64,000 nt of DNA from Henriciella sp. Its GTDB lineage: Bacteria > Pseudomonadota > Alphaproteobacteria > Caulobacterales > Hyphomonadaceae. The notes beneath the pieces are model-generated. The model ran no database searches. It had not been told where the DNA came from and saw only the letters and a program-made list of their open reading frames with translations. Position 1 is the stretch's first letter; the number at the start of each line of letters is the position of its first letter. This document shows, piece by piece, positions 18,489-20,249 of the stretch. The stretch covers positions 248,001 through 312,000 of the forward strand of contig JASJAO010000001.1 of assembly GCA_030066975.1 (NCBI GenBank), read 5' to 3'. A program made the translations under genes and the position numbers.

Positions 18489-20249
18489 ATGTCGTTCTGG
18501 ATCTACGAAAACTTTGGCAATAAACGCGCCCGCCTGCACCATAGCAGCTGCCGCTATTGCAATGATGGTCAGGGTGTTGGCGGTGACCAGACCAATGATG
18601 ACGATAAATGGCATGGCCCCTTTACGACCTATGCCGAAGCTGAAGGCGCGATGACCGCGCTCGGTCAGAAAGATGCCCGCCCCTGCGGCGTCTGTAAGCC
18701 AGCAGACATCGAAGCGAAAGCGCCTGTCGCTGCCGCGCCGGCGACGGCTGCTGCGAAAAAAACCACTGCTGCCCCTAAAAAGGCGGCCCCGAAGAAATCA
18801 AAACCCGCTCCCAAGGAGACGCCTCGCATGGACCTTTCAAAAGCGACTGGCCGCGTAAGCCAGGTTATCGGCGCTGTTGTCGACGTTGAGTTCGACGGCG
18901 CGCTTCCTGACGTTCTGAACGCGCTGGAATGTGACAACAATGGCAACCGCCTCGTGCTTGAGGTCGCTCAGCACCTCGGTGAGAACGCGGTTCGCACGAT
19001 TGCGATGGACTCAACTGAAGGTCTCGTTCGCGGTCAGGCCGTTGCTGACACTGGTGAACCAATTCTGGTTCCAGTTGGTCCAGCGACACTTGGCCGGATC
19101 ATGAACGTGATCGGTGACCCAATCGATGAGCGCGGCCCGGTTGAAACCGAACTGCGCAAGCCTATCCACGCGCCGGCCCCTGAATTTGTTGATCAGGCAA
19201 CCGAGGCTGAAGTCCTCGTCACCGGGATTAAAGTGATCGATCTGCTCTGCCCGTACACAAAGGGTGGTAAGATTGGCCTGTTCGGCGGTGCCGGTGTGGG
19301 CAAGACGGTTCTGATTCAGGAACTGATCAACAATATCGCGAAACTGTTCGGCGGTTACTCTGTGTTTGCCGGTGTGGGTGAGCGCACACGTGAAGGGAAT
19401 GATCTCTATTACGAGATGCAGGACGCCAACGTGATCGACCTTGACGGCGAAAGCCGGGCAACGCTGGTCTATGGCCAGATGAACGAGCCTCCCGGCGCGC
19501 GGGCCCGTGTGGCCCTGACTGGTCTCGCGCAAGCCGAGTATTTCCGTGATGAGGAAGGCAAAGACGTTCTGTTCTTCGTCGATAACATCTTCCGCTTTAC
19601 CCAGGCTGGGTCTGAGGTGTCTGCGCTGCTCGGCCGTATTCCCTCGGCGGTGGGCTATCAGCCAACGCTGGCGACCGATATGGGCGCTTTGCAGGAGCGG
19701 ATTACGACCACGAACAAAGGCTCGATTACCTCTGTGCAAGCGGTTTACGTGCCAGCCGATGACCTGACCGACCCGGCGCCAGCGACCTCGTTTGCGCACC
19801 TCGATGCGACCACGGTTCTGAACCGCTCGATTGCGGAAAAAGGTATCTATCCGGCGGTGGATCCACTGGATTCCACCTCGCGTATCCTTGATCCGCTGAT
19901 CATTGGTCAGGAACATTATGAAGTCGCCCGCGGCGTACAGGAAATCCTGCAGCGCTATAAGGAACTTCAGGACATTATCGCCATTCTCGGCATGGACGAG
20001 CTGTCAGAAGACGACAAGCTGGCCGTGGCGCGGGCCCGTAAGGTTGAGCGCTTCCTGTCACAGCCGTTTGACGTGGCTGAGGTCTTTACCGGCTCTCCGG
20101 GGGTTCAGGTGAAACTGGAAGACACGGTCGCTGGCTTTAAAGGCCTGATCGAAGGCGAGTATGACCACTTGCCGGAACAGGCCTTCTACATGGTTGGCTC
20201 GATCGCCGAGGCGAAAGCCAAAGCGGAGAAGATGCTGGCTGATGCGTAA
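18489..20249 (+). CDS. atpD: ATP synthase F1 subunit beta with metal-binding-like N-terminal extension
   Basis: The catalytic beta subunit. Residues 114-586 are a complete canonical AtpD ([20 protein letters not shown] at its start, Walker [38 protein letters not shown]). In the same frame 113 extra residues precede it: a small domain with His17-x3-Cys21-x2-Cys24 and Cys66-x2-Cys69, resembling Ada-like zinc ribbons, then an Ala/Lys/Pro linker (about 72-113). A strong Shine-Dalgarno AAGGAG lies 9 bases before the internal ATG at 18828, so a standard 473-residue beta may be made as well. The frame from 18489 starts immediately after the atpG stop. Which form is dominant cannot be read from DNA. 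Confidence 0.93.
18813..18818 (+). promoter_or_regulatory. Internal Shine-Dalgarno for canonical-length AtpD
   Basis: AAGGAG at 18813-18818 precedes ATG 18828-18830 by 9 bases. It sits inside the linker codons of the extended frame, yet has ideal sequence and spacing for starting the normal beta subunit. This makes a dual-start gene or a recent in-frame fusion likely. Confidence 0.7.

Follow-up and report, generated by a model that had tools for sequence, protein, structure and literature searches.

ClpB has an internal start through which a full and an N-truncated form are made from one gene (PMC6168691). The same has been described for HrcQ/SctQ, where one gene gives full and N-truncated subunits (PMC8553256). 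As far as the parts of these papers considered here describe them, both systems are like the atpD gene discussed below: one reading frame, two starts, and products that differ in their N-terminal part. They differ from it in that the enzyme here is the F1-ATPase and the inner site is apparently older. For the F0F1 genes themselves, the parts of a 2014 survey considered here report other insertions and extensions, none of them of the Cys/His-domain kind (PMC4154653). No description of an AtpD with such a domain turned up in a search of the openly licensed PMC literature (titles and abstract openings).

Few proteins are as strongly conserved as the catalytic subunit of F1, and the usual view is that all three betas of an F1 complex are the same gene product. 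We consider here, from a family of marine bacteria (Hyphomonadaceae), an atpD gene in a 64,000-nucleotide stretch of Henriciella sp. DNA (the window) and argue that it is a two-start gene whose long and short betas are both built into F1, a reading we hold to be reasonably probable. A lineage with two selected starts, the outer one adding a probable metal domain, would be a natural system for asking about mixed F1 complexes and about a module tethered to the crown, with relatives that lack the extension already at hand as controls.

The atpD locus and its extension

The F1 operon in the window has the order atpH-atpA-atpG-atpD-atpC and is otherwise ordinary. All five genes are on the plus strand. 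They are atpH (delta/OSCP; 15473-16033, start codon as given by the ORF tool; Pfam OSCP, E 2.5e-47), atpA (alpha; 16039-17574, an open frame named from its sequence and position), atpG (gamma; 17607-18488; Pfam ATP-synt, E 7.9e-94), atpD and atpC (epsilon; 20457-20858; Pfam ATP-synt_DE_N, E 1.8e-26). The atpG stop is the TAG at 18486-18488, and the long atpD frame (18489-20249, 586 codons) opens immediately 3' of it. The long AtpD is an F-type ATP synthase beta subunit. It is flanked by atpG and atpC, and the NCBIfam atpD model TIGR01039 matches its residues 120-582 (E 7.1e-249; 826.2 bits against a cut-off of 462.85), covering model positions 2-462 of 462. This leaves 113 residues ahead of the usual methionine at 18828, where the canonical beta of 473 residues (18828-20249) begins. 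Compared with an ordinary AtpD, the protein has an added N-terminal stretch with a Cys/His domain, and the gene has a further start within it. The genome has a single atpD match at E <= 1e-25 and one convincing copy of the Cys/His domain; four other places match the domain at E 0.07 to 1.4.

The extension has three parts. Residues 1-72 (18489-18704) form the Cys/His domain, with H17, C21, C24, C66 and C69. Residues 73-105 (18705-18803) are an Ala/Lys/Pro linker whose length and sequence differ among species. Codons 106-113 (18804-18827), read as P-A-P-K-E-T-P-R, end the linker and hold what we argue is the old atpD ribosome-binding site, an AAGGAG at 18813-18818 that lies 9 nt 5' of the ATG at 18828. 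The outer ATG has a Shine-Dalgarno word of its own, the GGAGG at 18476-18480, which falls inside the end of atpG at 8-nt spacing and pairs at -9.5 kcal/mol. The first-pass annotation of this DNA had claimed an atpD frame directly after the atpG stop, 113 added residues with H17-x3-C21-x2-C24, C66-x2-C69 and an Ala/Lys/Pro linker, and an AAGGAG ahead of the canonical ATG, and every one of these features is in the sequence.

It had also named a frameshift in the assembly as grounds for dismissing the extension. This was looked for and is not needed as an explanation, since the extension is conserved and the same frame is open in many separate assemblies, isolates included. The domain-linker-AtpD frame is open in 27 loci from a search of relatives (the window's own included) and in all 31 loci returned by a scan of named genomes; these two sets overlap. 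The in-frame extension in the genomes of relatives rules out an assembly error or frameshift, and we give an artefact practically no chance.

Some neighbouring features may be recorded here. Between atpD and atpC there is a Cys-rich open frame of 61 residues (20267-20449, plus strand) that is YHS-like, at 18.1 bits against a Pfam YHS cut-off of 30.3. A tie between this frame and the extension is unsupported. When 48 loci were searched with a crude pattern, a similar frame appeared only in L039, which has no extension, and the one further hit (L062) is not YHS-like by eye. On the minus strand a protein of 1114 residues with TPR and CHAT domains (11991-15335; Pfam CHAT, E 5.1e-49) adjoins the operon. 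In other families of the order, AtpD can start with an Ala/Lys/Pro-rich tail of about 30-55 residues and no Cys/His domain (L038, L040, L048, L049). These predicted proteins show that Ala/Lys-rich tails on beta are tolerated.

Ribosome sites at the two starts

There are 37 distinct extension DNAs, and a Shine-Dalgarno word stands ahead of the inner ATG in all of them at a spacing of 6-9 nt. The outer ATG has such a word in 36 of the 37, seven of them at the long spacing of 13-17 nt; the outer start of L076 has none of the listed words. In all 37 the pairing energy with the 16S tail is below the 5th percentile of the background at both starts. The mean is -7.8 kcal/mol at the outer ATG (range -5.1 to -11.8) and -8.3 kcal/mol at the inner ATG (n=37 at each), against an average of -1.7 kcal/mol (sd 1.5) for 323 other in-frame methionines of the AtpD core, none of them at -7 or lower. 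RNA folding does not single out either start relative to the core. The 60-nt folding energy is -12.9 at the outer start and -11.0 at the inner start. For core windows it is -16.3 (sd 4.3), with 23% of them folding as weakly as the outer start and 11% as weakly as the inner start, and the mean unpaired probability at the inner start is 0.47 against 0.44.

One could picture the long form alone being made in quantity, so that all three betas bear the domain and the inner site is a relic owed to chance or to the need for certain amino acids. The outer Shine-Dalgarno word, the pairing energies well beyond background and the tolerance of Ala/Lys-rich tails by relatives in the order would all fit. 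However, the codons of the inner site are nearly frozen next to a linker that varies. The AAGGAG is made up of a Lys codon, which is AAG in 30 of 30 sequences, and a Glu codon, which is GAG in 30 of 30. Synonymous divergence is 0.111 over codons 106-113 against 0.419 in the domain, 0.379 in the core and 0.479 in the linker, this last value being approximate because the linker alignment is uncertain. Among 402 windows of eight codons, the five with the lowest synonymous divergence begin at codons 105-109. Moreover, the seven Ponticaulis-type sequences retain the inner Shine-Dalgarno word in other letters, AAGGGG, 6 nt from the ATG. We consider it unlikely, if still worth weighing, that the long form is the only one made in quantity.

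The inner site also has a plausible source. In relatives that have no extension, atpD is preceded by a plain leader of near-identical DNA, for example CGCTCCCAAGGAGACGAGCCGCATG in L035 and CGCTCCAAAGGAGACGACCCGCATG in L037. Of the 59 family genomes that have atpD without the extension, 39 loci were parsed; GGAG stands before atpD in 37 of these, the exceptions being L041 and L045, and 33 have a leader of the form CTCC..GGAG. Since a like site is the plain leader in relatives, the last linker residues would be the old ribosome site read as codons. A gene fusion could be adopted in this way without losing the old protein.

A dual-start gene can be recognized by a conserved inner start and a ribosome-binding site that is selected beyond what the protein needs, and sequence comparison finds both here. 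Both starts of atpD look selected and so both are probably used. The conserved Shine-Dalgarno words, the constrained codons and the plain leader in relatives together suggest that the old site was kept inside the fusion and that one gene most likely makes both betas. These same three lines give comparative support to the two beta forms that the first-pass annotation had proposed.

The scheme we favor is as follows. Initiation at the outer ATG, where atpG ends, would yield the fused beta of 586 residues, since there is no stop in between, with a putative metal domain on an Ala/Lys/Pro tether. Initiation at the inner ATG on the old ribosome-binding site would yield the ordinary beta of 473 residues. 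The long form would be a subset of the three betas in F1, and its domain would extend from the N-terminal crown near the OSCP/delta end. In F1 the N-terminus of beta is located at the crown, far from the membrane and close to the OSCP end, so on a tether of roughly 30-70 residues the domain could reach the stalk or other partners. We infer that both proteins are produced and assembled into F1 and that the domain is a tethered docking or sensing module; that its role is of the docking or sensing kind is a guess. The metal- or redox-sensing tail on the hexamer offered by the first-pass annotation is a speculative candidate for such a role. A stricter version would make the betas unequal by design, with the atpG-coupled outer start giving roughly one zinc-tagged beta for each gamma and the other two coming from the inner start. 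We doubt this version. If it were true there would be one marked catalytic site per motor, and the tether could dock the enzyme to the peripheral stalk, to the membrane or to some other partner.

Selection and predicted fold of the Cys/His domain

The 66 family loci, which overlap between collections, contain 37 distinct domain sequences. All 37 keep both H-x3-C-x2-C (H17, C21, C24) and the final C-x2-C. The compared sequences are related, so these counts are not independent. Median dN/dS (Nei-Gojobori) is 0.129 for the domain, 0.352 for the linker and 0.067 for the core; many pairs are near synonymous saturation, so the values are rough and it is their order that is clear. They come from 30 sequences with the Ponticaulis type left out, with 270, 266 and 429 usable pairs of 435 for domain, linker and core, respectively. 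By these measures the domain is evolving as a functional protein and the linker loosely. Taken with the codon constraint above, the comparisons show a fusion that is conserved, a domain selected as protein and an inner site selected as DNA.

Another scenario takes the outer frame chiefly as a leader through which translation of atpD is coupled to atpG, with a protein domain that has no role. The outer ATG does abut the atpG stop in the window, and elsewhere it is within about 25 nt wherever the stop is seen. However, a leader of this kind would not call for purifying selection on the domain, for invariant Cys and His residues or for a fold that is confidently predicted, and in family relatives that lack the extension a spacer of 38-204 nt before the core start suffices. 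A mere leader is thus very improbable.

It could also be argued that beta is a carrier: the disordered linker would be cut, freeing a small metal protein to act alone and leaving a short beta behind. A variable, low-complexity linker would fit this, as would the free proteins of about 70-100 residues that are relatives of the domain. Against this, the linker has by eye no conserved cleavage motif apart from the end that encodes the Shine-Dalgarno word, and 105 Hyphomonadaceae genomes searched at E <= 0.001 have no separate copy of the domain. We regard release of the domain as improbable.

The predicted fold is b-b-b-a-b in both models (pLDDT 86.9 from alignment A1 and 89.2 from alignment A3). 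A classic zinc ribbon has two C-x2-C (or C-x2-H) knuckles around one Zn. The second pair of the domain is such a C-x2-C, but its first group is H-x3-C-x2-C. The metal ribbon proposed by the first-pass annotation has the invariant Cys/His set and the confidently predicted fold in its favor, but the domain is probably not a classic two-knuckle zinc ribbon. The domain probably binds metal, one Zn, and the likely ligands are H17, C21, C66 and C69, plus C24.

The nearest named likeness is to the N-terminal zinc domain of Ada (PF02805; PDB 1u8b and 1zgw). The end motif C-x2-C-[KR]-P is similar in the two, and the first ligand group, H-x3-C-x2-C in the atpD domain, is where they differ. The Ada N-domain 1u8b was the top Foldseek match against the PDB for both models, at levels that are not significant (E 2.0 and 3.4; TM 0.39 and 0.37). 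A comparison by hhalign with the Ada_Zn_binding profile, which used 16 Ada zinc domains and aligned only the last 10-13 columns, gave a probability of 23% over 13 columns and 14% over 10. PF02805 is absent from the Pfam matches of the window protein and of 12 members of A3, and Ada_Zn_binding has no match in the window's own genome at E <= 1. Membership in the Ada family is not supported by the sequence tests, the fold match is weak, and the modelled fold is possibly Ada-like.

The second half of DUF6233 (PF19746) resembles residues 48-72 of the domain, and at E <= 1 a match to it is seen in 8 of 12 members. It differs in that the best match, 22.4 bits, is below the cut-off of 27.6 and covers only 25 residues. 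A sequence search for solved relatives gave no credible one: its three chains had E 1.2-8.7, and two matched through a tag-like stretch. A profile search gave none. In a viral fold library the best match was an uncharacterised protein at E 0.16, and homing endonucleases recur at E above 0.1. Since no family cut-off was reached and the likeness to Ada is weak, we simply call this a small Cys/His domain, one that the libraries searched assign to no named family.

Distribution and history of the fusion

At E <= 0.001 the domain is found in 40 of 105 Hyphomonadaceae genomes and in 5 of 10 genera; atpD is detected in 98 of the 105. The domain is in frame with AtpD in 39 of the 40, in open frames of 580 to 684 codons. 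In the 40th (G442) the contig ends 194 nt past the match and there is no AtpD match. A search of 61 genomes of relatives, the window's own included, gave 28 matches, 27 of them in frame with AtpD and the other (L032) in a different protein. The named-genome scan, which detects close relatives through two short peptide patterns, returned fused loci from Henriciella, Ponticaulis, Hyphomonas johnsonii, Hyphomonas sp. BRH_c22 and other Hyphomonadaceae. The domain is present in 25 of 29 genomes of the window's genus, which holds Henriciella; two of the other four have a plain atpD and two have no atpD match. In the genus that holds Hyphomonas johnsonii it is present in 3 of 42 genomes and absent in 39. 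The extension must be dispensable, since it is absent from those 39 and from two atpD-bearing genomes of the window's own genus.

Beyond the family, the domain matched in at least 7 of 385 genomes of a class sample and at least 8 of 398 of a phylum sample, the window's own included in both; scoring covered the first 14-15 candidates in each genome, and some distant members may have gone undetected. The matches outside the family include free-standing small proteins (L084, L085, L086, L157) and a 171-codon frame (L088), one match (L089) is interrupted by stops, and a further one is at L159. The first-pass annotation had asked whether the domain occurs as a free gene before atpD in relatives. 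Within the family there is no separate copy, as described above, and free-standing relatives occur elsewhere in the class.

At L087 (1467-2829, minus strand) and L158 the Cys/His domain is the C-terminus of an IS1-like transposase frame. Pfam DDE_Tnp_IS1 scores 24.2 bits on the former (cut-off 24.1) and 18.9 bits, below the cut-off, on the latter. Such fusions hint that the general role of the domain has to do with nucleic acids. Plasmids gave matches at E 1e-6, 2e-5 and 0.6, none of which is an intact gene upon inspection. A Mesorhizobium plasmid (L090, near 3001-3210) has a free-standing relative of the domain with a stop codon in frame and no gene listed there, and at the other two matches (E 2e-5 and 0.6) no open frame with the motif is listed. 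A phage origin was considered and rejected. Viral contigs in the close-relative scan gave 10 pattern-matching stretches, none of them confirmed; the phage records have no relative of the domain, and PHROGs gave two families at E 0.08 with one member each.

A tree of AtpG plus AtpD with 81 rows requires at least 8 changes in the presence of the extension, against a mean of 26 when presence is shuffled; it was built by a quick method with no bootstrap, some inner branches are weak, and the change count gives no direction. Rows with the extension fall on both sides of the deepest split in their 68-row clade and the absences are scattered. By a hand count, a strict history with one gain takes about 9 changes. 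The most likely history, as we read the tree, is that the fusion arose once, deep in the Hyphomonadaceae, and was followed by several losses that spared the inner start. In the founding event a small free-standing gene would have come to lie in frame ahead of atpD. Two genomes of the family (G032 and G029) have a second, distant atpD-like match (L050 and L051, 38% and 35% identical to the query stretch).

Leaders without the extension might retain pieces of the linker. Such a remnant is not supported in the leaders of L098 and L033, where 240 and 243 of 300 shuffles, respectively, did as well, and it is weak in the leader of L129 (11 of 300). It is supported in L113 and L115, whose identical spacers keep a piece similar to the linker in a sister that has the extension, a likeness reached by 0 of 300 mononucleotide shuffles. 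This shared DNA could be old leader instead of a remnant.
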